DNA of 38,373 bases, from assembly GCA_014193395.1 (NCBI GenBank), contig BJHT01000029.1, positions 1 through 38,373 on the forward strand, in the 5' to 3' direction. The notes beneath the pieces were generated by a model, which was given only the letters and a program-made list of their open reading frames with translations, ran no database searches and had not been told where the DNA came from. Every line of letters starts with the position of its first letter. Within the stretch, counting starts at the first letter, position 1. The stretch is from Verrucomicrobiota bacterium (GTDB taxonomy: Bacteria; Verrucomicrobiota; Verrucomicrobiia; Limisphaerales; BJHT01). The translations under genes and the position numbers were made by a program. Positions 5,342 to 36,498 of the stretch are shown piece after piece.

Positions 5342-8300
5342 CTATTTCAAATCGTTGAGCAGGTCGTCGAAGCCTTTGTCTTTGGATTTTTTGGCGGTGG
5401 GATCGACCTGGCTGGAGGCGGGTTCGGCGTGGAAGCGGAGGTGGCCCCAGAGGTTCGGGTGGAGGCGGGCTTCGCTCGGAGCGTCGGCGACGACGGTGGT
5501 GGCTTGGTTGGACCAATAAATTCGGCGCAGGACTTCGTTGCCGTCGCGGCCGCTGGCGAGGATGCCCCAGTCGAATTTCAGGCGCAGGTTCGGGCGGATG
5601 ACGAGGCCGATGGCTTTCAAGGGGATGGCGGCTTCGACGATGTAGCCGCGGTCTTCGAACATGCGGGCGTGGGCGAGGCGCACGCCGCTGAGGCGGGTGA
5701 CGCGGTCGAAGGAAACTTCGGCGACGGGCGAAACAGCGCGCCAGACTTGGTCCGCAGGCGTGCCGGGGACGGTGGACTGGTAGAGGACGGCGGCGGGTTC
5801 GTCGCCCATGATTGAGAGGAGGAGGCGCTGGTCGCCGGCGACGGGGGCCTGGCGGTCCTCGGGCGCGGCGGGGTCGAGGGCGAGCTGGAGATCGACGGAC
5901 GCGCCGGTTTTGAAGAGGCGATCCCATTGCGTGCCGGTGTTGCGGAACGGTCCCTGGCCGCGGACTTCGTAGGCGACGTAGAGGTGCTGGTCGTCGTGGC
6001 CGATGCGGAATTTGATGTCGTCGATTTCGGCGCTGACGTAGGGCCAGTCGCTGAGGCTGCCGTCGATTTTTGGCGGCGTCTCGAAGCGGTAGGAATCGAG
6101 CACGGGGGCGCGCTGATAGACGAGGCGTTGCTCGTGCTGGCGTTCCCAATCTTGCGCTTTTTGGAGGTCGGCGGCGGTGATCGTCAGTTCGCCGCCGAAG
6201 CGTTTGAAGCGCTCGAGGCCGGTGACTTCGAGTACGCTGGCGTGGTTGTGGCCGGCGACGACGTAATATTTGTTGTCGGCGCGGCTGCGCGTGAACCAGC
6301 CCCAGAAATGCTCCTGGCCGGCGGTGGCGTCGTCGAGGCGCATCCCGCGCGGGCGCTCGGGCATGCTCCAGGCCTGCGCGGCGGGCGTGCGGAGGTCGCG
6401 GAAAATCTGTCCGGCGAAGAGGCCGTCGGCGGTCCAGATGTTCCACGCGCCGTAGTTGGCGTGGACGACGACGAACTCGCCGAGATCGCCGGCGGGCGCG
6501 GTGTCGTGGCCGACCCACGCGAATTGCGAGACGACCTGGTCGGGCCGCCAGGGCTTGGTGTTTTGCTGCACGCCCGCGCCTTCGCTGGCGTAGCTCCAGA
6601 GCTGGTCGCCGGTGGGCGTGAACAGTCCCTCGCCGTGGCGGTCGCCGCCGAGGCGATGGTAGTTGCCGTTGTCGAGGCGGATGAACGCGCGGCCTTTGCC
6701 GGCGAGGGCGGCGACGTTTTGCTCTTCGTAAACGGGCGTGCCGTTCGGGAGAAATTCCTTCACCACCCAGCGCACGCGGCCGGCCTGCACGCTGAGGTCG
6801 GATTGAAAGGGCGTGACGCCGTTCATGTCGGCGGGCTTGGGCGAGAGCGCGACCTCCTCGGCCTGCACCGCGCCGTCGCCGTTGCGGTCGGTCCAGATGA
6901 ATTTGAAATTGGCGAGCACGGGCGTGCCGAGTTGCGCGAGGAGCTGGCGGTCGGCGAACGGCTCGAAGCCGTTGGCCTGGCCGACGGCGGCGACGAGTTT
7001 CAAACGGTCGCCGGTGTGGAGATAGACCGCGCCGTAGGATTGCTCGGGGCCGTGGACGTGGAAGCTGGTGACGAGATAATCGCGGCCCTGCACGCGGATG
7101 GGGATGTCGCCTGCGCGCGTCGCGCCGGTCCAGGTGAGATTTTTCAAACGGGTTTTGCCGGTGGTCCAGTCGAGCTCGAATTCGAGCGGACCGTAAAAGA
7201 GGCGGCGTTTGTCCCACGGATCGAGCGCGCCGCCGCTGCCGTAGGCGGTCGGGCCGAAAAAGTCCTTCAGATGCTTGCCGTCGGTGGTCCACTGGCTGAT
7301 GCGTTTGGGCCAGTAGGTCCAATCGACGGCCCACAGATGGCCGGCGCTGTCGGCGGCGAGGGCGGTGATGTGGTTGAGGCGCTGCGGATCCCACGGGCCG
7401 GGCTGGTAGCCGCCGGGCGTGCCGATGGTGCGGAGGAATCTGCCATCGGGCGCATAGACGCGGATGTGGCGGCGCTCGGGCGCAACATCGAAGACGTAGA
7501 GGTTGCCCTGCGCGTCGGCGGTGATGGCGGTGGGCTTCAGAAGATCGGTGGCGAGCGTGGTGTGCGGGCCGCCGGTGAGATCGAGGCGGAGGAGTTTTTC
7601 GCCGGCGGCGGCGAAGAGTTCACCGCGCGGGTTGAAGGCGAGCAGGTTGCCGGGGGACCATTCGTGGCCGGGTTCGCCGACGCCGGTGAGGGGCAGTTCC
7701 TGGATGATTTTGCCGGACTTGGCCTCGAGGACTTCGAGGCGTTCGTTCATCAGCGGATCGACGGGCGCGTCGCCGCCGAGATGGCGCAGCGGGGCGACGC
7801 CGTAGAGACGGCAGCGGGTTGGATCGATGATTTGCGCGCCGTGATCGGCGCGGAAGCCGTATTCGTCGCGCACGAGGAACTGCTCGACGACGCGGATGCG
7901 CAGGGCGCGGGTGCGGACCTCGCGGCCGAAATCGACGTAGCTGTCGAAGTAGCGGGCGTGGCCGTTGTGGCTGGGGAAACCGCTGTGGTGGTAGTGCCGG
8001 GCCTGGGTGAATTCTCCCACTTTTTCCCAGCCGTCCGCGGCGGCGAGCGGGGGCGTGGGACTCGCGCCCGTGTAGGCCTCGATCACGGCGCGCTTGGCGT
8101 GCATCTGCTGGATGGCGATGCCGCGCAGGGGCTGCGGCTCGCGCCATTCCATGAGGTAAATGCCGGGGTCGGCCTCGCTGACGGGCGCGGTGCGCTGCGC
8201 GTCCCAGACGCCGTCGGCATCGAGCTTGCCGGAGCTGACGCGGATTTTTTCGGTGACGGGCACGCGGGCGAAACGGCGAGCAAGCAGCTTCATGCCTTCG

Positions 8301-10672
8301 ATCGCGCCGAACCAGAGGTCGTCTTTCGAGGTGCGCTTTTTGCCCGTCGTGGGCGGGTCAAGATCGACGACGGGCGAGGTTTTTCCGGCATCATCAAGAT
8401 CGGCGATGAGGTCGTCGGCCCCGCGTTGGAAGGTGATGCGGAGGGCGCGGGTCCGGGTGTTTTCCGGCGCGGCCCAGACGGCCCAGACGTTGGTGTCGGT
8501 GGTGCTGAAGGGGAGCCATTGTTTCGCATCGTCGGCGTTGGGCGGATAAGGCGCGCCGGGTTTGAGGAGGCTGAGTTTCACGAGCCACGGCTGATTTTGC
8601 GGATAGGGGAACACGACGCTGCCGAGCGCGACGGGCTGATGGAACGCGAGCACGACGTGCTGCTGGCGGGCCGCGCCGCGGGTGGATTCGATGAAGGTGA
8701 GGCCGTGGCCGGGCGCGTAGCCGGGCGGGTTGTTGCCGAGGCGGAAGAGGCGGAGAAAATCGTCGCGCGGGTCGGGGACGACTTCGTAGGCGAAGCGTTC
8801 CTTGCGTTTGGCGAGATAGCCGGGGACGCAGTTTTGAATGTCCACGTCGGCGGGCGCGGCGGCGTTGACGAGCCAGTTCTCGGGCGCGCGGATCGCCATG
8901 TACACCTTGCCGTCGCGGGCGGCGAGGCCCTGCAGGCCGCGGTTGCGCGTGTTCGTGGGCGGGAGCAGCGCGACGGTGCGGACGGCCTTGGTTGCGACGT
9001 CGATGCCCCAGATGCCCTCGGTGCGGGCGTCGAGGCCGCGCTGGCGGGCGAAGTTGTTGGCGGGCGCGGCGCTGAAGACGGTCGGGCCGTCGCTCGCGAG
9101 CCACCACGCGCCGGTGAAGGCCTCGAAGGAATGGTAGCCCCAGAGTTTTTTTCCATCGGTGTCGGTTTCGATCAACGACACGCCGCTCTCGGCGACGGGC
9201 GCGCCGAGAAAAACCTTGTCGCCGGCGACGCACGCGGCGCGCGGGGGCGAGTGATCGGCGAGCCAGCCGTGCGGGCCGTTCGCGCCGGAGAGCCACGGGG
9301 CGCGGTCGGGGAAGTGATCGCCGACATTCGGGTAGGCGGTCATCTCGTAGCGGAGTTCGAGGGGCGGATGCGTGATGGCTTTCCAGCGATAGGTGCCGGG
9401 AGAAACGTAGCGGCCCTGTTCGTCTTTGAGATCCCAGTGCTCGGCGAGCGGGCCGGCGGGGCGCTCGATGTTCGCGATGAGATTGCGGACGCGATGGCCG
9501 TCGGCGGAATCCACGACGAGCGTGACTTTGCCGGGCGCGGCGAGGGAGTAGTCGATGGCGGTGGGCGGATGCGACGCGGTGGCGGCGCTGGGGGCGGACG
9601 CGGGAACGGGCGCGTCGCCGAGGTCGATGAAAGCCTGGAGGCAGTCGAGGGAGGCGAGCTGGGGATCGCGGCCGGCCTTGGTGATTTCGATTTTGAGACC
9701 GCGCGTGGTGAGCGGGGCGAAGGTGATCCAGCGGCCCGGTGCGGCGTTTTGGATGGTGGCGGGCAGGGCCTTCCATTCGTCGCGCGTGCCGGCGGCGGGG
9801 TTGATCGAGTCGGGGCCTTGGAAGGTGAAGAGCTTGATGCGCTCGAAGGTTTGGGCGTCATCGGCGAGGAGGCCGACGAGGCGCGGGGTTTCGCGGATTG
9901 ATGCGCCGACGGTTGGGTGAGTTTCAGTTTTCGGCCAAGAGAGGATGAACCACGCGGGTTCGAGATCGGAGATGGGCGGGCGCGGGTTGACGCCTTTTTG
10001 ATCTTTGCCCGAGTTGCGCCAGCCGCGGCCGCCGTGGTCGCGAGTCACGAGCGATGCCGGGGTGAATTCGCCGTCGGCGTTGGCAATGGCGCGGGGCGTG
10101 ACGGAGAACAGGCGCGCGGCGAGCGGGCGGAGAAAATCGAGGCGGGTCTGATCGGTGGCGCGCGGGACGGTGCAGAGGATGGCGCGGGTCTCGAGCGAGA
10201 GCGGGGGCGGGAGCGGCGTGCAGCGCGGGAAATTCTGGCCCCGTGGTGTTTCGAGCGCGAGCCAGTGGGCGTCGTTGTTGGGATCACCGGGGAAGGGCGC
10301 GTCGGCCTTGAGCACGCGCAACTGGCCGACGCCGCCGAGCAGCGAGCCGATGCGCACGGGCCGCTGGAGCGCGATGCGAAAATGCACGGTGCCGGGCGCG
10401 CGCGGATTCGCGGCGGGCGGAGCCTGCCAGCGCGGGCCGTCGTTCGCGAAGCCGAGAGCGCGCTGAAGCGTTTCGGCGGTGGCGGGAACTGATTGCTGGT
10501 CGCGGAAGGCGGCGCTGGCGCCGAGGTCGAGCGCGTCGGGTTTGAACGCGGGGTCGAAGGGCGCGGCGTCCGCGACGATGGCGAAGAGCACGACGAAAAG
10601 AAGGAGGGACGGTGCGCAGGGGCGGCGGCGGGGCGGAGAGCAGGCGGGCGCGGGCGCGACGGGGTGTTTCAC
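5342..10672 (-). CDS. Giant exported beta-propeller protein with CBM9-like C-terminus
   Basis: This 1776-residue protein starts at a GTG (10672) with a Pro/Arg-rich n-region and a hydrophobic signal core ending near residue 36 (VADA). About residues 370-435 resemble a FlgD-type Ig-like domain (VDSADGHRVRNLI, ERPAGPLAEHWDLKDEQGRY, SPGTYRW). Long stretches of NHL/SMP-30-type propeller blades follow, for example AITADAQGNLYVFD and ALAADSAGHLWAVD around residues 1050-1120. DRNGDGAVQAEE near 1262 is an EF-hand-like calcium loop. From about 1530 the sequence KIDGSLSDWPYV and later segments match CBM9-like sugar-binding domains. No hydrolase active site is evident, so it is more likely a secreted binding or scaffold protein than an enzyme. 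The long antisense frames over it are composition shadows. Confidence 0.75.
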   Translation of the reverse strand: MKHPVAPAPACSPPRRRPCAPSLLLFVVLFAIVADAAPFDPAFKPDALDLGASAAFRDQQSVPATAETLQRALGFANDGPRWQAPPAANPRAPGTVHFRIALQRPVRIGSLLGGVGQLRVLKADAPFPGDPNNDAHWLALETPRGQNFPRCTPLPPPLSLETRAILCTVPRATDQTRLDFLRPLAARLFSVTPRAIANADGEFTPASLVTRDHGGRGWRNSGKDQKGVNPRPPISDLEPAWFILSWPKTETHPTVGASIRETPRLVGLLADDAQTFERIKLFTFQGPDSINPAAGTRDEWKALPATIQNAAPGRWITFAPLTTRGLKIEITKAGRDPQLASLDCLQAFIDLGDAPVPASAPSAATASHPPTAIDYSLAAPGKVTLVVDSADGHRVRNLIANIERPAGPLAEHWDLKDEQGRYVSPGTYRWKAITHPPLELRYEMTAYPNVGDHFPDRAPWLSGANGPHGWLADHSPPRAACVAGDKVFLGAPVAESGVSLIETDTDGKKLWGYHSFEAFTGAWWLASDGPTVFSAAPANNFARQRGLDARTEGIWGIDVATKAVRTVALLPPTNTRNRGLQGLAARDGKVYMAIRAPENWLVNAAAPADVDIQNCVPGYLAKRKERFAYEVVPDPRDDFLRLFRLGNNPPGYAPGHGLTFIESTRGAARQQHVVLAFHQPVALGSVVFPYPQNQPWLVKLSLLKPGAPYPPNADDAKQWLPFSTTDTNVWAVWAAPENTRTRALRITFQRGADDLIADLDDAGKTSPVVDLDPPTTGKKRTSKDDLWFGAIEGMKLLARRFARVPVTEKIRVSSGKLDADGVWDAQRTAPVSEADPGIYLMEWREPQPLRGIAIQQMHAKRAVIEAYTGASPTPPLAAADGWEKVGEFTQARHYHHSGFPSHNGHARYFDSYVDFGREVRTRALRIRVVEQFLVRDEYGFRADHGAQIIDPTRCRLYGVAPLRHLGGDAPVDPLMNERLEVLEAKSGKIIQELPLTGVGEPGHEWSPGNLLAFNPRGELFAAAGEKLLRLDLTGGPHTTLATDLLKPTAITADAQGNLYVFDVAPERRHIRVYAPDGRFLRTIGTPGGYQPGPWDPQRLNHITALAADSAGHLWAVDWTYWPKRISQWTTDGKHLKDFFGPTAYGSGGALDPWDKRRLFYGPLEFELDWTTGKTRLKNLTWTGATRAGDIPIRVQGRDYLVTSFHVHGPEQSYGAVYLHTGDRLKLVAAVGQANGFEPFADRQLLAQLGTPVLANFKFIWTDRNGDGAVQAEEVALSPKPADMNGVTPFQSDLSVQAGRVRWVVKEFLPNGTPVYEEQNVAALAGKGRAFIRLDNGNYHRLGGDRHGEGLFTPTGDQLWSYASEGAGVQQNTKPWRPDQVVSQFAWVGHDTAPAGDLGEFVVVHANYGAWNIWTADGLFAGQIFRDLRTPAAQAWSMPERPRGMRLDDATAGQEHFWGWFTRSRADNKYYVVAGHNHASVLEVTGLERFKRFGGELTITAADLQKAQDWERQHEQRLVYQRAPVLDSYRFETPPKIDGSLSDWPYVSAEIDDIKFRIGHDDQHLYVAYEVRGQGPFRNTGTQWDRLFKTGASVDLQLALDPAAPEDRQAPVAGDQRLLLSIMGDEPAAVLYQSTVPGTPADQVWRAVSPVAEVSFDRVTRLSGVRLAHARMFEDRGYIVEAAIPLKAIGLVIRPNLRLKFDWGILASGRDGNEVLRRIYWSNQATTVVADAPSEARLHPNLWGHLRFHAEPASSQVDPTAKKSKDKGFDDLLNDLK

Positions 10673-10830: not shown

Positions 10831-11289
10831 TCAGAGCAGCCGCGGATCGAAGGAGAAAGGCTCGGGCTTGCTGATGACGATTTTTTTGAAATCGGGATGC
10901 GCGGGATTGAGCAAGTAGTTCGGCTCGGCGGGAATGATGACGCTGGGCAGCTTCAGCACGGCCGAACGCAGCTCCTTCGACCAGCGATCACCGATGGCCT
11001 TGGTCGAAGGCGGTGGCGGTTCGTTGGTCCAATCGGGCGGCAGCGTGGTCGGAGGAAGTTGCTCGACCAAGGCATCGTCGAATTCGAGGCGGAAGGTGAC
11101 GAACTTCAACGGCACGGGATGATCGAGATGGACCAGTATCTCCAAGGCCGCCAACGAGACGGTGCCGCTGGCATACACGACCCCGACGCCCCGCGAATTC
11201 CAGCGACCGCCACCGCGCGACGCGCCTTCGCCGCTGAAAGCCGTGGCGGCGTGTCTCTCCTTAACAATGCGCCAGGCCTGACCCATCAC
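10831..11289 (-). CDS. RES-domain toxin (NAD-consuming type)
   Basis: The 152-residue protein shows the RES family signatures. These are WRIVKERHA near the N-terminus, GGRWNSRG with Arg29, VVYAS with Tyr39, SLAALEIL with Glu50, and the C-terminal PSVIIPAEPNYLLNP. RES toxins (Res, MbcT, ParT) consume NAD+ in the cytoplasm and stop growth, and Arg, Tyr, Glu and Ser at these places form their active site. All are present, so the toxin looks intact. The start is GTG 11289 or ATG 11286. The bases GTGATG overlap the antitoxin stop TGA (11286-11288), so translation is probably coupled. The gene order antitoxin-toxin is normal for this type II system. Confidence 0.9.
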   Translation of the reverse strand: MMGQAWRIVKERHAATAFSGEGASRGGGRWNSRGVGVVYASGTVSLAALEILVHLDHPVPLKFVTFRLEFDDALVEQLPPTTLPPDWTNEPPPPSTKAIGDRWSKELRSAVLKLPSVIIPAEPNYLLNPAHPDFKKIVISKPEPFSFDPRLL

Positions 11290-11810
11290 GAATAGACCCC
11301 GTATTCAATGCGGCCGAGGAGATCCTCGACTTCCCGGGCGCCCACTTCGGTTTCCGCGTACTCGAGCGGGATGGCGCCACCGAGGCCGAATTGCGGAGCC
11401 GACAGCCACCGGCGCGCGTCCTCGAGGGACTCCAGCACCGTGACCGCCTTGTCGAGGAGGCGGGTGTAGCGCACGACGCGATCCGATTCGGCGGGATCAA
11501 GCCGGCCCGCGAGCATGCGCCGGTGCAGCGTGGCCTTCGAGATGCCGAGCATGGGAACAAGCTTTTCCATCGGCAGGTCGAGTTTCCCGCGCAACTCGTC
11601 GAGCATCCGGATGGGGAATCCCGCCTTCAGCGAGCGGATGAGGGCGGACGGTGCGGAGCGCGACAGGCCCGCGGCCTGCGACCGACCACGCCCCGACAAG
11701 AGCGCCGGGGCCGATCGCGGGACGCGCACCGTTCCGCGGTGGACAGGCCGAGCGCTTCGGTGTGCGCCGGCCGCCGGCTTGGATTTTGGTTTGCCCAAGG
11801 TCTTTTTCAT
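11286..11810 (-). CDS. Xre/MbcA/ParS-type antitoxin (DUF2384)
   Basis: The 174-residue protein has an Xre-like helix-turn-helix region at about 70-115 (LPMEKLVPMLGISKATLHRR) and a C-terminal DUF2384 toxin-binding region (ARRWLSAPQFGLGGAIPLEY, ending RIEYG). It should neutralise the RES toxin and repress its own promoter. The first 55 residues are an extra Arg/Pro/Ala-rich stretch that is probably disordered. They could be real or reflect a start chosen too early. An in-frame stop at 11823-11825 rules out anything longer, and ATG 11810 lies directly after the promoter. Upstream on the minus strand is a palindrome overlapping the -10 box. Confidence 0.88.
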   Translation of the reverse strand: MKKTLGKPKSKPAAGAHRSARPVHRGTVRVPRSAPALLSGRGRSQAAGLSRSAPSALIRSLKAGFPIRMLDELRGKLDLPMEKLVPMLGISKATLHRRMLAGRLDPAESDRVVRYTRLLDKAVTVLESLEDARRWLSAPQFGLGGAIPLEYAETEVGAREVEDLLGRIEYGVYS

Positions 11811-27533: not shown

Positions 27534-29339
27534 TCAATTCGCCGGCCCGCGCCGTGGCCCACCGGGTCCGGACGGCCGCGGGTTTTCACCCGGTCCGCCG
27601 AGCAAACTCGTCCGGTCGTGAGTGACCTTGAGTTGCGCGCTGTCGAGAATGAGATCCTTCATGGCGGCGAGAAGGAGGTCGCGATTTACCTCGGCGGATG
27701 GCGTGGAGATTGGCACGGGTGCCGCGAGCGCGAAGGCGGTGAGGAGGTACGCCTTCACGCCGGGACCTTTCGAGTGCGGCGGCGCGTAGCCGGGGCGGCG
27801 GTTGACGCTGTTGTTTCCCAAGGTTCCGACGCCATGCGAATCTTTCGGCAGGCTCCCGACATTTGCCGGGATGTTGTAGAGCACCCAATACCACTTGGCC
27901 CGGCCCTCGGGGTCGAGATGGTCCATGATGATGGCGAAGCTCTTCGTGCCCGCCGGTGCGCCGGACCACTCGAGCGGCGGCGAGATTCCCGCGCCATCGC
28001 CGGTGAATTCCACCGGCAGTGCGCCGCCATTGGTGACGGCGGAACTGCGGAGGAGGAACGTGCCGCTCCGCTTGGGCGTGTAACTGTCCGCGGCGACCGC
28101 GCCATTCGCGTCTCTGGGCGGAGGTGTTTCGCCACGGACGGGCGGAGGAGGAGGAGGGGGCGGCGGGGGCGGGCCGCCGCGACCGGGGCCGCGCTGCGGA
28201 CCGCCGCGACCATTCGGCGCGCCGGGGCCACCGCCACCTCCGCGCGGCTGTTGCGTGTAAGTCTCGGTCGTCACCTGGCCGCGGCCGTCCACGTACTCGA
28301 AGCGCGCGGTTTTGGTGTCGGTGACCGCATAGTTGATGGCGCGCGTTTCACCACCGATTTCGTATTGCAAACTGAAGCTCTGATTTTCCCGCGACTGAAA
28401 ACCCGTGATCCGCGCCCCGCGCAACGGCGTGCCCGCGCCGCGCCAGCCGCCCGCCGCCGGCTGCGGGTCCACTTGTCCGTCGCGCTCGACGACCTCGCCG
28501 TGAAAGCCGCCGTTCACGTAGGGATACTTCGTCGAGCCGTGATAGTGATAGCCCAGGCCCGCGACGTCGTGACCGTTGAAACGGTCGAGCTGCGTGGGCG
28601 CGGAACCGTCGGGTTCGGTCAGTCCGTAAATTGGATAGCCGTCCAGCGCGTAGGCGATGGGCAGGTTTTTGCCCAGCACGCTTTGCAAGTGAAACGGCGC
28701 GGCGTGGTAATGGTAATCGTCCGCGCGCCCGCAGTGGCCGCCCCATTGGTCCAGTTCGCCGATCTCCTGTGAGATTTCCCCGCGATTGTTCTGCGGATTG
28801 AAGATGGGAATGCCGTTCGCCGCGAGCGCGATGGCTCCGCGGAGGAAGCGGTTCTTGATCGACACCGGATTTTTCGCCGGCACCGGCCGGAGCGGAAGGC
28901 GCCACGCGTTGTGGCCGGAATAGTCATGCGGCAGCGGTACCTGCTGCTGCCATGCCGTGATGCCGACCATCATGTTGTGCGCGGGCAGGCCGTCGGATTC
29001 GACGAAGAGGAAGTTCGCATCGGCGCGCGTTTTCACTTTCGGCGCGAACGGAGCGAACGCGGCGGCCACGCGCGCCGCCGGGCCGGAACCCGCCGCCTCA
29101 GCGACGCTCGCCGCCGTGACGCGGGTCTCCCGTGAAGCTGCTGCTGCCAGCCTGATGAAGCGTCGGACTTCCTCGTGCGTGCGCGGCGAGTTCCCCTGCG
29201 TCTGCGGCGGCGCGACGCTGAAATCGTACTGCGGCGCGCCGTGGTCGTGGGCTGTTTCGCCAATCAGATGCGCATGGCCGTGGTGTGCTGCACCGCCGAG
29301 GACCAGCACGCACGCGAACGGGAGGCAGATGAATTTCAT
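27534..29339 (-). CDS. Exported YHYH-domain/PEBP fusion protein
   Basis: The 601-residue protein has a signal peptide (about 1-23) and a His-rich mature start (HHGHAH, then ETAHDHG). A YHYH domain follows, with the name motif at DYHYHAAP (about 208) and a second GYHYHGS (about 267). About residues 365-410 are a Gly/Pro/Arg linker with an 11-Pro run. The C-terminal part, from about 430, is a YbhB/YbcL-type PEBP domain: GDGAGISPPLEWSGAPAG, AIIMDHLDP, WYWVLYNIP and AYLLTAFAL. The usual DP and HW ligand-pocket motifs appear as DHLDP and WYW. The His clusters suggest metal binding outside the cytoplasm. Function is unproven for either domain in this form. Confidence 0.82.
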   Translation of the reverse strand: MKFICLPFACVLVLGGAAHHGHAHLIGETAHDHGAPQYDFSVAPPQTQGNSPRTHEEVRRFIRLAAAASRETRVTAASVAEAAGSGPAARVAAAFAPFAPKVKTRADANFLFVESDGLPAHNMMVGITAWQQQVPLPHDYSGHNAWRLPLRPVPAKNPVSIKNRFLRGAIALAANGIPIFNPQNNRGEISQEIGELDQWGGHCGRADDYHYHAAPFHLQSVLGKNLPIAYALDGYPIYGLTEPDGSAPTQLDRFNGHDVAGLGYHYHGSTKYPYVNGGFHGEVVERDGQVDPQPAAGGWRGAGTPLRGARITGFQSRENQSFSLQYEIGGETRAINYAVTDTKTARFEYVDGRGQVTTETYTQQPRGGGGGPGAPNGRGGPQRGPGRGGPPPPPPPPPPPVRGETPPPRDANGAVAADSYTPKRSGTFLLRSSAVTNGGALPVEFTGDGAGISPPLEWSGAPAGTKSFAIIMDHLDPEGRAKWYWVLYNIPANVGSLPKDSHGVGTLGNNSVNRRPGYAPPHSKGPGVKAYLLTAFALAAPVPISTPSAEVNRDLLLAAMKDLILDSAQLKVTHDRTSLLGGPGENPRPSGPGGPRRGPAN

Positions 29340-29888: not shown

Positions 29889-30950
<1,062 letters not shown>

Positions 30951-30974
30951 GTCAGTTCTCCAAACTCTCCGCCA

Positions 30975-31005
30975 GCGGCGTCCCGACCCCCGGGACGCCG
31001 CTTTT
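30975..31005 (+). terminator. Intrinsic terminator after gap
   Basis: A perfect 11-bp stem (GCGGCGTCCCG at 30975-30985 with 30991-31001) and a 5-base loop are followed by TTTTG. It lies 25 bases after the gap stop. This is the clearest terminator in the window, and it separates gap from the motor operon. Confidence 0.9.
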
Positions 31006-31136: not shown

Positions 31137-31150
31137 GCCGGTGGCCTCCG

Positions 31151-31198
31151 CCGTGCAACCGTGCAACCGTGCAATCGTGCGATCGTGCAATCGCGCGG
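31151..31198 (+). repeat. Six tandem octamers upstream of the motor operon
   Basis: CCGTGCAA occurs three times, then TCGTGCGA, TCGTGCAA and a decayed TCGCGCGG, with an unbroken period of 8. It ends 72 bases before the ATG of the channel gene. No -35/-10 pair could be assigned in the 30951-31270 gap. Confidence 0.85.
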
Positions 31199-31270: not shown

Positions 31271-34200
31271 ATGATTCGATTCCATTGTTCCGCCTGTGCG
31301 ATGAAGTTGACGGTCGAACCCGAGCACGCCGGTGCCACGGTCAACTGCCCCGGCTGCGGGCACAAACTCACGGTCCCGCCGGCGCCCAAAGACGACGGCA
31401 AAGGCCCGGCGTCCACGACGGCCAGCCGCGCCGGCTGGAAGGAGACCGATCCCGCCAACGCCAACCCGTGGCTGTCGTTGGCGATCGGTTTCGGGGTGTT
31501 CGCGTTTTTCTACCTGTCGGCGATGCCGTTCAAGGGGTCGTACTATTACGATATTTTGTACAAGCGCAGTTGGGTGAACTTCGCCGAGACGTTCTGCTTC
31601 GGGTGGGGCGTGGGTTATCTCATTTTGAAATTCCTCAAGTTCAAGCATCAGCGCAACGCGTTGCTGCTCGATGTGGTGCCGCAGAACCTCGGGCGCGAAA
31701 TCACCAAGTCGAACATCCATGTGTTCATCGCGCATCTCTACGCGCTGCCGGTCAAGCTGCGCGACAGCATGATGGTCAACCGCATCCGCAAGGCGCTCGA
31801 ATTGTTCGAGGTGCGCCAGGTGAACGGCGACGTGGCCACGATGATGGCCAACCAGTCGAACATCGACGCGGCGCGCATCGGCGGCAGCTTCACGTTGTTG
31901 CGGGTGTTCGTGTGGGTGATTCCGATTCTCGGGTTCGTCGGCACCGTGCTCGGCTTGTCGGTCGCCATCGGCAGCTTCAAGGACGTGATGGGCGCCGCCA
32001 AAGACGTGGACAGCCTGATGTCCTCGCTGGGCAACGTGACGGGCGGTCTCGCGACGGCGTTCGACACGACGCTGCTGGCGCTGCTGTACGCGATCGCTTT
32101 GAGCCTGCCGATGTCGTCGCTGCAAAAGCTGGAGGAGGATCAACTCAATCATGTCGATGCCTACTGCAACGAAATCCTGCTGCCGCGGCTGAACGACGGC
32201 TCCAACACCGCGGGCGGCGACATGGGTGCGCTGGCCGAAGTGTTGACGGCGTCCCTCACACGTGCGCACACGCAGTTTCTTACGGGGCTGGACGGAGCGA
32301 GCACGCTGATCCGGGCGCAGAGCGAAGGGATGGAAAAGCGGGCGGCGGAAAATCAGCGGCTGGTGCAGGAATCGTTCACCAAGGCGGTCACCGTGTTTCA
32401 GGAAGGCGCGGCCAAGGCCTTGGGCGACCTCGGCAAAACTGCGGGCGAAAGCATCGAGAGCCTCAGCGGCACGATGAAAAAAGCCAGTGAGCACGTCGCG
32501 TCGCTCGAGAAAGTGGCCGCGACGCAGCAGGCGCAGATTGATGCGTCGGTGAAGCAGACGCTGGCGAAATTGCAGGAGGATTCCAGCAAGGTGATCGCCC
32601 AGGCGGTGACGGGCGCCATTTCCGAAACTTCCAAGGCCATCGAGAACACCTTCAAGCCCGCCGTGCAGCAGGTCACACTCCTCAGCGACGCGGTGAAGGC
32701 CACCGCCGGGCATGTGGCCACGCTCGAGCAGCGCGCCAGCGAACATCAGGTCGTGGTGCAGAAGTCGCTGCAGGAAGCCATCGGCCGCGTGCAGCAGGAC
32801 GCCTCGAAGCTCCTCGTGGAATCCATCAAGGCCTCCGCCGACCAGTCCTCCAAGGCAATGGAAGAAGTGATGAAGCCGGCGATGACCCAGCTCGCCGCAA
32901 TTGGCGCGACGGCCAAGCTGGCGGTCGAGGAATCAGCCTCGCTCCAGAAACAGTCGCGCGAACAGCACGCGGCGGCGCAGCAGGCGTTCATCTCCACCAC
33001 CGCGCAGTTGCAGCGTGACTTGAGCAAGACGCTCGAAGAATCCACCAAACCGGTGACGCAGCATTTTGCGGGGCTGGCCGAGAGTGTGAAGGCGGCCGTC
33101 GGCGCGGTCTCCGCGCTCGAACAGCGGACGCGCGAACAGCAGGCGCAGTCCGAGCGGAACGCGCAGGAAGCCGTGGCACAGTTGCAGCGTGAGAGCGCGA
33201 AGGCGCTCGAGGAAGCGCTGCGGCCCGCGTCCGTGCAGCTCGCCGCACTGGCGGGCCTCGTCAAGACCGCCGCGGACAATTCGCTGGCGCTGGAGAAACA
33301 GAGCCGCGAGCAGCAGACCGCCACGTTGCGGACGGCGCAGGAAGCGGCCGCGCAATTGCAGCGTGAGACGAGCAAGGCGCTGGAAGACGCGCTCCGCCCG
33401 GCCACCACGCAACTCGCCGCGCTGGCAGGCTTGGTGAAGACCGCCGCGGACAATTCACAGGCGCTCGAGAAGCAGAGCCGCGAGCAGCAGGCCACCCTGT
33501 CGCGCGCCGCCCAGGAGGCCCAGACCGCCGCGCTGCGCTCGGCGCAGGAGGCCTCCACCCAGTTGCAACGCGAGACCGCCAAGGCGCTGGAGGACGCGCT
33601 CCGGCCGGCCGTCACCCAGCTCGCCGCGCTGGCCACCGGGGTCAAGACCGCGACCGATTCCACCGCGGCCCTCGAACGTCAGGCGCGCGAGCAGCAGGCC
33701 GCCGCCGAGCGCGCGATGCAGGACGCCGTCAGCCGCTTGCAGCGCGATTCCGTCAAGGCGTTCGAAGATGCGTTGCGCCCCGCCGCCCAGCAGCTCGGCA
33801 CCTTGGGCGAAAGCGTCAAGGCCGCCGTCACCCAGCTCACCACGCTGGACCGCGCCGGTCGCGACCAGCAGATCGCGGCGCAGCGGGCGATGGAAGAAGC
33901 CGCCGCCAAGCTTCAGCGCGACACCGCCAAGTCCCTGGAAGACACCATGCGGCCCGTCGTGGCGCAGTTCGGTTCCCTCGCCGACAGCCTCCGTTCGGTG
34001 TCGGATCACGTCGGCTCGCTCGACCGTCAGGCCCGCGAGGGTCAGGAAGCCACCCGCCGCGGCGTCGAGGAAAACCTCGCGCGTCTGCAACGCGAATCGA
34101 TCAAGGGTCTGGAAGAAGCCCTGCGCCCCGCGGCGCAGCATCTGGCCGCGCTCGGCGAGACGGTGCGCGCCGCCACGCAGCAGCTCAGCGGTCTCGACCG

Positions 34201-34441
34201 CCATGCGCAGGAACATCAGGCCACGGTCGCCCGCTCGGTCGAAGCCAGCGTGGGCAAGCTCCAGCAGGATGCCAGCCGCGCCGTCGAGGAAGTCATGCGC
34301 GGCGCCACCACGCAACTGGCCACGCTCCAGCAGGGCATCGCGGCGTTGAACCAGACGCTGACCGAACTGAACGGCAAGCAGGTCATCGTCCAGCAGCAGA
34401 AGCCCGGCGGCGTGTTCAGCCGGATGCTGGGCAAAGGCTGA
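31271..34441 (+). CDS. MotA/TolQ/ExbB-like channel with zinc ribbon and giant coiled-coil tail
   Basis: ATG 31271 (upstream frame is repeat DNA) gives 1056 residues. Residues 6-29 form a zinc ribbon (CSAC...CPGC). Four membrane segments follow at about 66-87, 104-123, 207-235 and 255-283. The last two carry the MotA/TolQ/ExbB hallmarks PILGFVGTVLGL (218-229) and AFDTTLLAL (263-271). In this family a pentamer of such subunits surrounds a dimer of single-pass subunits and turns ion flow into movement. From about 290 to the end is a tail of about 765 residues, predicted coiled coil, largely regular 58-residue units. The tail length and layout resemble ZorA of Zorya. Two single-pass subunit genes follow at 40 and 46 bases, so a three-gene operon is likely. 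No biological role is known to me for this form. Confidence 0.85.
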   Translation: MIRFHCSACAMKLTVEPEHAGATVNCPGCGHKLTVPPAPKDDGKGPASTTASRAGWKETDPANANPWLSLAIGFGVFAFFYLSAMPFKGSYYYDILYKRSWVNFAETFCFGWGVGYLILKFLKFKHQRNALLLDVVPQNLGREITKSNIHVFIAHLYALPVKLRDSMMVNRIRKALELFEVRQVNGDVATMMANQSNIDAARIGGSFTLLRVFVWVIPILGFVGTVLGLSVAIGSFKDVMGAAKDVDSLMSSLGNVTGGLATAFDTTLLALLYAIALSLPMSSLQKLEEDQLNHVDAYCNEILLPRLNDGSNTAGGDMGALAEVLTASLTRAHTQFLTGLDGASTLIRAQSEGMEKRAAENQRLVQESFTKAVTVFQEGAAKALGDLGKTAGESIESLSGTMKKASEHVASLEKVAATQQAQIDASVKQTLAKLQEDSSKVIAQAVTGAISETSKAIENTFKPAVQQVTLLSDAVKATAGHVATLEQRASEHQVVVQKSLQEAIGRVQQDASKLLVESIKASADQSSKAMEEVMKPAMTQLAAIGATAKLAVEESASLQKQSREQHAAAQQAFISTTAQLQRDLSKTLEESTKPVTQHFAGLAESVKAAVGAVSALEQRTREQQAQSERNAQEAVAQLQRESAKALEEALRPASVQLAALAGLVKTAADNSLALEKQSREQQTATLRTAQEAAAQLQRETSKALEDALRPATTQLAALAGLVKTAADNSQALEKQSREQQATLSRAAQEAQTAALRSAQEASTQLQRETAKALEDALRPAVTQLAALATGVKTATDSTAALERQAREQQAAAERAMQDAVSRLQRDSVKAFEDALRPAAQQLGTLGESVKAAVTQLTTLDRAGRDQQIAAQRAMEEAAAKLQRDTAKSLEDTMRPVVAQFGSLADSLRSVSDHVGSLDRQAREGQEATRRGVEENLARLQRESIKGLEEALRPAAQHLAALGETVRAATQQLSGLDRHAQEHQATVARSVEASVGKLQQDASRAVEEVMRGATTQLATLQQGIAALNQTLTELNGKQVIVQQQKPGGVFSRMLGKG
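32651..34441 (+). repeat. 174-base (58-codon) internal repeats in the tail
   Basis: A landmark codon block encoding (K/R)P-A-x-x-Q or a near variant starts at 32651, 32870, 33044, 33218, 33392, 33599, 33773, 33947, 34121 and 34295. The steps are 219, 174, 174, 174, 207, 174, 174, 174 and 174 bases. The 207-base step is 174 plus 33, that is one extra 11-residue hendecad. 58 residues equal four hendecads plus two heptads, so phase is kept. Units vary in sequence, so they are not a recent expansion. Confidence 0.92.
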
Positions 34442-34481
34442 TTCTTGGATTAGCCTGTCGCCTGATTAACCGTCGATTGCC

Positions 34482-35267
34482 ATGGCACGAGTCAAAGCCA
34501 GTTCCGTTCCGGCCGTTTCGCTCTTCCCGTTTTTGAGCATCCTCGCGTGCCTGTCCGGCGCAATCGTGGTGATGATCAGCATCCTCAGCCTGATGCAGAC
34601 GACGGAGAGCACCACCAAGGCCAAGGCCAAGAACCCGCTGGCTGAGGAGATGATGAAATTGCAGAAGGAGCTGAACAAGCTGAAGCCCACGCGCGACAAT
34701 CTCGCCGCCCTCGAGGAGGTCGAGAAGAAGCTGATTCAGTTGCAGGAAGGCGTGAAGGGCAAGGTCGAGACCGACGCCATGCGCGTGCGCCTGCAGGCTG
34801 AGTTGGAGAATATCCAGATCGTGCTCGGCAATCTCCTGAACGAGCAGCCCGCCGTGCAAAAGGAACTCGAGGCGTTGAAGAAAGAACTGCTCGCGCGCCA
34901 GAAGAAGCCCGAGGACATGGTGCCGATGCTCAAGGTGCAGGGTGGCGGCTCGGGGTTCGGCGCCGGGCGGCGCCTGTTCGTCGTCGAGGCCACCGCCGAT
35001 TCGCTCATCGTCCACAAGAACAAGACCGAGCAGTATCGCTTCGCCACGAGCACGGTGGGTGCCGACAAGGAACTCAATGCCTGGCTGGCTTCCATCGGCC
35101 GGCAGACGAACCACCAAATCCTGTTCCTTGTGCGCTCGAACGGTTGGAACACCTACCAGCGCGGCGCCGGCTGGGCCGAGAATCAGTACAAGCTTAATAC
35201 CAGCAAGATGCCCATTCCCGGCAGCGGTCTGGTGGACATCGCCGAGTTCGAGAAGTTCATGAAGTAA
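34482..35267 (+). CDS. ExbD/MotB-like single-pass subunit lacking a membrane acid
   Basis: The 261-residue protein begins MARVKASSVP and has one membrane segment at about 12-38 (LFPFLSILACLSGAIVVMIS). Its position next to a channel subunit and its topology fit the ExbD/TolR/MotB group. The conserved membrane Asp of that group is absent: Ser19 stands in the LFPFLS part. A charged coiled coil spans about 45-135, and a C-terminal globular region of about 110 residues (GAGRRLFVVEAT to the end) is not recognised. There is no OmpA-type peptidoglycan-binding motif. It probably pairs with the next protein inside the channel pentamer (inference). Confidence 0.7.
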   Translation: MARVKASSVPAVSLFPFLSILACLSGAIVVMISILSLMQTTESTTKAKAKNPLAEEMMKLQKELNKLKPTRDNLAALEEVEKKLIQLQEGVKGKVETDAMRVRLQAELENIQIVLGNLLNEQPAVQKELEALKKELLARQKKPEDMVPMLKVQGGGSGFGAGRRLFVVEATADSLIVHKNKTEQYRFATSTVGADKELNAWLASIGRQTNHQILFLVRSNGWNTYQRGAGWAENQYKLNTSKMPIPGSGLVDIAEFEKFMK

Positions 35268-35313
35268 CGCGGTTCACCGCCCGCCTTTTTCCACCCCCAA
35301 CCCCCCAATCCCC

Positions 35314-36498
35314 ATGGCCAGACGCAACCAAACGAATCTCGACGAGAGCGTGAACATGGACTCGATGATGGACAACATGACCAATGTTGTCGGCACCCTG
35401 CTGCTCGTGCTCATCGTCGTGCAATTGAAGATTGGCATGACGGCCAACCAGATCGAAGAGAGCCTGGCCAACGTGAAGGCGGAGGACATCGCCGCCGCCA
35501 AAGCCGAGGTCGCCAAGACCGAGGCCGACCTGAAAAAACACAACGCGGACGAGGACACGCTGGACGAAATGCTGAAGGGCAAGGCCGCAGATTTACGCCA
35601 GTTTCAAGCCAGCTTGGAAAAGCAGGGCATCAAGTTCGACGATGTGGACAAGCTCAAAAACGAGGTCGCCGAGAAGCGCAAGGCCGAGGAGAATGTGAAG
35701 AAGGAGATGATCGCCCTCCAGACCGAGCGGGACAAATTGAAGGCGCAACTGGACACCACGCCCATTCCCGTTGCGCCGCCCCCGGTGGATATCCGCGTCC
35801 CCATTGCCAAGCCGATTCCACAAGGGGCGGAGTTCTTCAACGCCTCGGTCCTCAGCAACAAGGTCTATATGATCACCGACGCGGTGATCCGGAAGCGGGT
35901 GATGGATGAGTTCGAGAAGAACAAGTTCAACCTGGTGTTTACCAACCGGACGGAGAAAGACGGCAAGGTGACCACGGTGTACAACCACAAGGAAACCCGT
36001 GACTTGCTGATGGCCGCCAAGATCAGCGATGAATTCATGGAACCGATCTTTCCCTTGAACGAAATGGCCGACCGCATCGCCATGCAGATCCGGCCCAAGG
36101 CCGACGGCGGCGAGACGGCCGACCAACTGGATGACAACGATTCCAAATTTCGCAGCTTCCTCGTCAAGCTGCGCGCGCGGCCCAAGGCGGTGATGTGGTT
36201 CAAGGTCGATCCCTCCTCCATTCCGGCCTACCTCAAGGCCCGCGAGCAATGCACCCGGTACGGCATCCCGGCCGGTTGGGAATTTAGTACCCAGACTGTG
36301 TTCGGCACCGAAAACCTCGCCTTCGTGGTCAACCGCATCAAAGAGCCGCCCCCGCCGCCGCCCCCACCGCCGCCGCCCCCGCCGAGCACCGTGCCGCCGC
36401 CGCCACCCCCACCGCCGCCGCCCGTGGTCGCTGCCGCGCCGAAGCCGCCCCCGCCGACCGTAATCACCATCGCCCCGCCGAAGAAGTCGCTGGATTAA
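35314..36498 (+). CDS. ExbD/MotB-like single-pass subunit with acid and proline-rich tail
   Basis: The 394-residue protein begins MARRNQTNLDESVNMD and has one membrane segment at about 22-40 (MTNVVGTLLLVLIVVQLKI). Asp20 (MMDNMTN) sits at its start and aligns in position with the proton-carrying Asp of ExbD, TolR and MotB. Asp16 is a second candidate. A coiled coil spans about 45-150. A region of about 190 unrecognised residues follows. The C-terminus, from about 345, is almost all proline in two long runs (13 and 10 Pro), which could reach through or bind another protein. No OmpA-like domain is present. The gene is last in the operon. Confidence 0.7.
   Translation: MARRNQTNLDESVNMDSMMDNMTNVVGTLLLVLIVVQLKIGMTANQIEESLANVKAEDIAAAKAEVAKTEADLKKHNADEDTLDEMLKGKAADLRQFQASLEKQGIKFDDVDKLKNEVAEKRKAEENVKKEMIALQTERDKLKAQLDTTPIPVAPPPVDIRVPIAKPIPQGAEFFNASVLSNKVYMITDAVIRKRVMDEFEKNKFNLVFTNRTEKDGKVTTVYNHKETRDLLMAAKISDEFMEPIFPLNEMADRIAMQIRPKADGGETADQLDDNDSKFRSFLVKLRARPKAVMWFKVDPSSIPAYLKAREQCTRYGIPAGWEFSTQTVFGTENLAFVVNRIKEPPPPPPPPPPPPPSTVPPPPPPPPPPVVAAAPKPPPPTVITIAPPKKSLD

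Follow-up and report, generated by a model that had tools for sequence, protein, structure and literature searches.

The window analysed here is a stretch of 38,373 nt (contig BJHT01000029.1, assembly GCA_014193395.1) from a Verrucomicrobiota bacterium. At positions 31271–36498 it carries three consecutive genes, all on the plus strand, which we call A, B1 and B2 (Table 1). Pfam and hydropathy analyses bore out the preliminary description of this trio as a MotA-family operon, in which a channel subunit with a zinc ribbon and a tail of ~765 residues is followed by two distinct single-pass proteins.

Table 1. Features of the A-B1-B2 locus, in positions of the window
Feature	Position	Strand	Description
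Terminator-like hairpin, intrinsic type	30974..31002	+	12-bp perfect stem, then TTTGTTTG; consensus match only
A, 1056 aa	31271..34441	+	Zinc ribbon, predicted TM helices, MotA/TolQ/ExbB domain, repeat tail of ~765 aa
Zinc ribbon, N-terminal, in A	31286..31357	+	Four-Cys pattern (Cys 6/9/26/29)
MotA_ExbB channel domain, A residues 172–293	31784..32149	+	Pfam PF01618
Tail of A, predicted cytoplasmic	32141..34438	+	58-residue units; prolines at residues 463–953; hydrophobic period 3.63; tip KPGGVFSRMLGKG
B1, 261 aa	34482..35267	+	One TM helix, SLFPFLSILACLSG, with Ser19; coiled coil; small alpha/beta domain
B2, 394 aa	35314..36498	+	One TM helix, MDSMMDNMTNVVG, with Asp20; coiled coil; alpha/beta domain; Pro-rich stretch; conserved C-terminal PKKSLD

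The hairpin and its T-rich stretch lie 3' of the upstream GAPDH gene and before A, and this predicted element suggests that the trio forms its own transcription unit. Position 30890 was rejected as an alternative start of A, since it lies ahead of the terminator, and since the ribbon starts just past the ATG at 31271. In the spacer 5' of A (31144–31196), an 8-bp tandem repeat resembling CGTGCAAC runs for about five steps.

The neighbours of the trio in the window are metabolic: GAPDH, a sulfatase and a YHYH/PEBP protein, followed farther away by glycosyltransferases, a T2SSE-type ATPase and MoeA. The YHYH/PEBP protein (27534–29339, minus strand) is a fusion in which a proline run separates a YHYH domain from a phosphatidylethanolamine-binding-protein domain. 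The minus strand also encodes an antitoxin of the Xre/MbcA/ParS type (11286–11810), as well as a 1776-codon ORF (5342–10672) which found no match in Pfam and overlaps a 1324-codon ORF on the opposite strand.

Subunit A and its repeat tail

The channel domain of A scored a modest 33.3 bits with PF01618 (cut-off 22.9), and 38.4 bits in the genome search. Thr225 (GTV motif, TM3) and Asp265 (TM4) are conserved at 98–100% among 77 aligned homologues, the value for the TM4 Asp being 98%. The ribbon cysteines are 100% conserved in these homologues, which were chosen for carrying the ribbon motif; the nearest solved sequence is the zinc ribbon of AgmX (7zok), at a non-significant E of 0.27. The linker W-x-E-x-D-x-x-N at residues 56–63 is likewise conserved in all 77. 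A hydropathy scan gave strong hydrophobic segments at residues 64–89, 201–240 and 256–287. A further segment, recognised by eye near residues 101–120, would bring the count to four helices, as in MotA, and would place both the ribbon and the tail in the cytoplasm. Profile searches of the same genome found six further MotA_ExbB genes and five ExbD (PF02472) genes, with B1 and B2 not among the latter, indicating that the trio supplements an ordinary set.

The tail starts after the last hydrophobic segment, which ends near residue 287. Its 58-residue repeat was detected by autocorrelation (1.19, where shuffled sequences reached at most -0.15 at lags of 40–90) and is marked by prolines at residues 463, 536, 594, 652, 710, 779, 837, 895 and 953, which are spaced by 58 residues apart from two steps, of 69 and 73. 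Hydrophobic positions recur with a period of 3.63 residues, a value equal to 58/16 that indicates a nearly straight predicted helix bundle; a straight helix of 765 residues would measure ~110 nm at 0.15 nm per residue. Moreover, adjacent 174-nt DNA units reach up to 79% identity, so that the array has probably grown recently.

The giant tail is not a constant feature of the system. Among the homologues, most tails are 139–160 residues long (~148), two have 189–199, one set has 249–297 and ten have 521–820. The tree of A shows at least two origins of the long tail, one in the clade of the window and the other in locus L111. With short tails in the majority of homologues, the basic function cannot depend on a long rod. 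Most tails end in a basic-aromatic tip of the KKKGWFSR type, which reads PGGVFSRMLGKG in the window.

B1 and B2

In both B1 and B2 the TM helix is single and N-terminal. Neither protein matched the ExbD, MotB or OmpA families in Pfam, and these families were also absent from the matches listed for 134 aligned homologues (66 + 68) scanned singly; what matches there were in Pfam, and those of the B1 and B2 profiles among PDB sequences, were for the most part coiled-coil noise. The two profiles align with each other over the TM region (E 1e-7) and over the C-terminal domain (E 6e-7), and on this evidence B1 and B2 are diverged paralogues. The similarity between the ExbD and B profiles is weak in the TM helix and finds no support in the periplasmic domain. 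The earlier label 'ExbD/MotB-like' thus holds for the architecture and the TM alignment of the two proteins; it does not hold at the level of family matches, nor for B1 in respect of the motor Asp, which it lacks.

AlphaFold2 predicted B1 with a pLDDT of 75 and a C-terminal beta-beta-beta-alpha-beta-alpha-beta domain. For B2 (pLDDT 82), it gave a confident domain at about residues 165–345 and a fairly confident C-terminal peptide. Searched against the PDB with Foldseek, neither model found a match at E <= 1e-3; the best-ranked matches had RNase H-like folds at low query TM-scores (about 0.1–0.25) and were set aside.

In the profile alignments, of which those with ExbD are weak, Ser19 of B1 lines up with Asp20 of B2 and with the conserved Asp of ExbD. 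Asp20 is invariant across the B2 alignment. Residue 19 of B1 is Ser in the window's clade and in most relatives, and Asp in one clade. This residue is coupled to position 16 of B2: B1-Ser goes with Asp16 in 49 of 49 cases, and B1-Asp with Val16 in 29 of 29. Given that the Asp group is a single clade with full support on the tree of A, the Ser/Asp swap is one coupled change and counts as one observation, not 78; repeated covariation was discarded on the same ground. When outgroups are included, the Asp clade is nested within the Ser group, which suggests, under a long-branch warning on the rooting, that the Asp of B1 was lost and then regained.

Distribution and surroundings of the trio

We collected 80 loci from other genomes with the B1 profile, a sample that by construction holds loci with B1. 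The order A-B1-B2, on one strand, was found in 76 of them (L097 having a broken B2 frame), which speaks for a genuine unit and not a chance arrangement. The four exceptions comprise L051, L104 and L114, which stop at contig ends, and L074. In the latter an insertion-element-like ORF follows B1, while B2 is present at full length (412 bits) on a different contig of that genome, beside an ORF of this kind. On these two contigs, L074 and L188, the ORF (CSCCGKSGP...) stands after B1 and before B2 and so splits the operon. We therefore rejected this genome as a case of B1 working without B2. All six genomes of the window's taxonomic order that gave a strong B1 match also gave a strong B2 match. Pairwise distances of A, B1 and B2 correlate with one another (r 0.82–0.93 over 55 loci, a value that includes species relatedness), which fits the inheritance of the three sequences as a unit.

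Nearly all loci bear Verrucomicrobiota in their titles. Cultured, non-pathogenic carriers include Haloferula rosea (L118) and Roseibacillus ishigakijimensis (L107). L103, on a contig titled as a Klebsiella pneumoniae MAG, groups inside the window's clade in the tree, and its organism label is probably wrong. The spread is patchy: the trio occurs in 25 of 247 good-quality genomes of the class.

Clustering of the flanking ORFs of the 80 loci found no gene shared with the trio outside groups of close relatives. Only genus-level synteny was seen, in the form of a ribB/ribH/nusB/ftsY-like run in Prosthecobacter-type genomes, together with common sulfatase and DUF1501-like genes (all named by eye from sequence). 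No ZorC/D/E-like effector and no TonB, TolA, Pal or receptor gene is conserved beside the trio in these flanks. The AglRQS motor of Myxococcus acts together with the Glt envelope proteins, whose genes are likewise unlinked. By tblastn, B2 was found in neither plasmid nor phage collections, and B1 was not found in plasmids. These results speak against the trio belonging to a defence island or having an effector that is inherited with it. Thus the flanks and the Pfam scans agree with the preliminary description in that a ZorA-like long tail occurs here with no OmpA domain and no effector nearby, and the defence context for which it recommended a search was not found in the flanks or in the plasmid and phage collections.

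Weak matches of the B1 profile in other Verrucomicrobiota classes fall in further A-B-B' trios (L169–L175 and L180–L182). In these (L169–L174, L181 and L182, with L175 and L180 as variants), A has about 294–385 aa, no ribbon was detected and there is no long tail. The TM motif is FFSFQDIITSxTGIM in B1 (core FQDIITSxTG) and LELLLDTMCNTFGG or LLLDTMCNTFGG in B2. The gene order is that of the window trio, whereas Asp is present on both B proteins in most sampled loci. The window system is the ribbon-and-tail branch of this larger two-B motor set, and the ribbon-less trios of the other classes are apparently undescribed.

Looser arrangements were also encountered. In L176, L177, L183 and L184, an A of ~500 aa is followed at some distance by a short B-like protein (~223–241 aa) with the motif LDSFLDIxTCxxGVL, and L184 has a second small B-like protein. 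In L178 (4307–6395), tandem proteins with the TM motif SFLDCICCGFG lie 3' of a weak MotA-type gene. The class often has canonical ExbD genes in adjacent pairs (G058:C35, G062:C30, G064:C17, G071:C65, G073:C6 and others).

Known motors and the proposed mechanism

Within PADLOC, the best match of A was ZorA2 (36 bits, E 7.5e-10). The ZorAB complex of Zorya types I and II has a ring subunit of the MotA family whose long cytoplasmic tail is helical, as is predicted for A of the trio, and ZorB has an ion-conducting Asp in its TM helix, to which Asp20 would correspond in B2; the tail of ZorA is a bundle of five C termini that is needed for function (PMC11890865). In Zorya, however, the B subunit is of one kind and carries a Pal-like peptidoglycan domain, and ZorE or other effectors are present, whereas the trio has two B paralogues devoid of a peptidoglycan domain, a zinc ribbon on A and no effector that we could find. 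Membership of Zorya was excluded on the absence of a conserved effector in the flanks of the 80 loci and on the metabolic neighbours, that of MotAB on the absence of an OmpA-type peptidoglycan-binding domain from B1 and B2, and that of TolQR/ExbBD on their lack of a PF02472 match.

Contrary to the earlier claim, two B subunits do have precedents. The Myxococcus gliding motor AglRQS likewise consists of one MotA-like and two different ExbD/TolR-like subunits encoded in a single cluster (PMC3169522, PMC9389320), and it is still open whether AglQ pairs with AglS or each with itself (PMC9389320). AglQ and AglS match Pfam ExbD (6.7e-18 and 3.1e-15), both with a predicted Asp, and AglR has only 245 aa; the trio was not assigned to this system because its two B proteins are by profile not ExbD/TolR. 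Published ExbB sets with tandem exbD1/exbD2 genes and the ExbD pairs of the same class also join one A to two B genes, but both B of the exbD1/exbD2 type are canonical ExbD, whereas B1 and B2 do not match ExbD and show only hints of similarity to it in the TM helix. A 2025 survey of MotAB relatives reported varied extra domains on non-flagellar A subunits and took the gene immediately downstream of A as the B subunit (PMC12505986), so that at most one of two B could be detected. One A with two B (AglRQS, tandem ExbD) and long tails (ZorA) are thus each known separately. The combination of a ribbon, a variable repeat tail and two non-ExbD B paralogues with no effector is apparently undescribed in the open-access literature searched, where we also found no description of the trio under another name, in line with the initial expectation.

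The known 5:2 motors have a dimer axle with an ion-binding Asp on each helix, and the alternation of the two sites is central to the rotation model. We propose that the trio encodes a free-standing motor of this type (MotAB/ExbBD/ZorAB kind) with a B1-B2 axle and a rotating cytoplasmic rod, a reading for which we consider the chances evenly balanced. By homology to the MotA family, five A subunits would form an ion-driven pentameric ring, probably powered by a flow of protons or sodium. Because B1 and B2 are linked, paralogous and changed together, the axle inside the ring would consist of one TM helix of each and not of two copies of one protein, giving a 5:1:1 stoichiometry; the coupled swap is consistent with one such mixed axle. 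Ions would flow via the invariant Asp20 of B2 and, given Ser19 in B1, only one axle helix would bear the usual carboxylate in the window's clade. On the periplasmic side, the axle would be held by the alpha/beta domains of the two B proteins. On the cytoplasmic side, the five tails of A would assemble into an Ala/Gln/Leu-rich, nearly straight rod of up to ~110 nm, its length set by the count of 58-residue units, and its tip may pass motion or a signal to a cytoplasmic partner. That the rod would turn with the ring is inferred from the five-chain tail bundle of ZorA (PMC11890865). More tentatively, and at less than even confidence, the trio may represent a distinct motor class, defined by an obligate B1-B2 heterodimer axle, a single Asp helix in most members and a ruler-like rod that extends in 58-residue steps from a fixed ring to a conserved tip.

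We regard it as rather unlikely that the trio is an envelope force transducer of the TolQR/ExbBD kind. Its output would be periplasmic, through the Pro-rich extension and the conserved C-terminal LD of B2, and the tail of A would merely stabilise or place the ring. Such a role agrees with the short tail of the majority of homologues and with the last residue of B2, an Asp in 76 of the 82 loci (in several of the remainder, B2 is cut off by a contig end). The Pro-rich stretch, of ~40 residues, is reminiscent of the linkers of TonB and TolA. Yet the flanks of the 80 loci hold no conserved neighbour, hence no partner gene of the TonB, TolA, Pal or receptor kind; the C terminus of B2, with a pLDDT of ~86, may fold back onto its own domain; and the conserved tip of the A tail is left unexplained.

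Improbable in our view is a second arrangement, in which one kind of ring serves two alternative motors, A5-B1(2) and A5-B2(2), or B1 is a regulatory plug outside the axle. In its favour, the B1 of the window's clade has no ion-transport Asp, which would suit a plug or an inactive paralogue, and in AglRQS, too, the pairing of AglQ and AglS is still open between hetero- and homodimer (PMC9389320), but the conserved A-B1-B2 order and the coupled B1/B2 swap speak against both versions. That the trio is a Zorya-like anti-phage sensor, with its effector encoded elsewhere or acting through the tail tip, seems very improbable: the ZorA2 match, the patchy spread and the long tail would suit it, but no ZorC/D/E-like or other conserved gene accompanies the 80 loci, plasmid and phage copies were not found by tblastn, B1 and B2 lack an OmpA-type peptidoglycan domain and the genes around the trio in the window are metabolic.

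Should B1 and B2 share one axle, as in the motor that we favour, nature would offer versions with the Asp on one helix (and Ser on the other) or on both, and the role of the second site would be testable in the absence of engineered heterodimers. The tails, from ~148 to 820 residues, provide a natural series of rod lengths on otherwise similar motors. Moreover, searches based on ExbD overlook a whole set of B subunits, and the trio adds a widespread, unnamed motor family to the Verrucomicrobiota.
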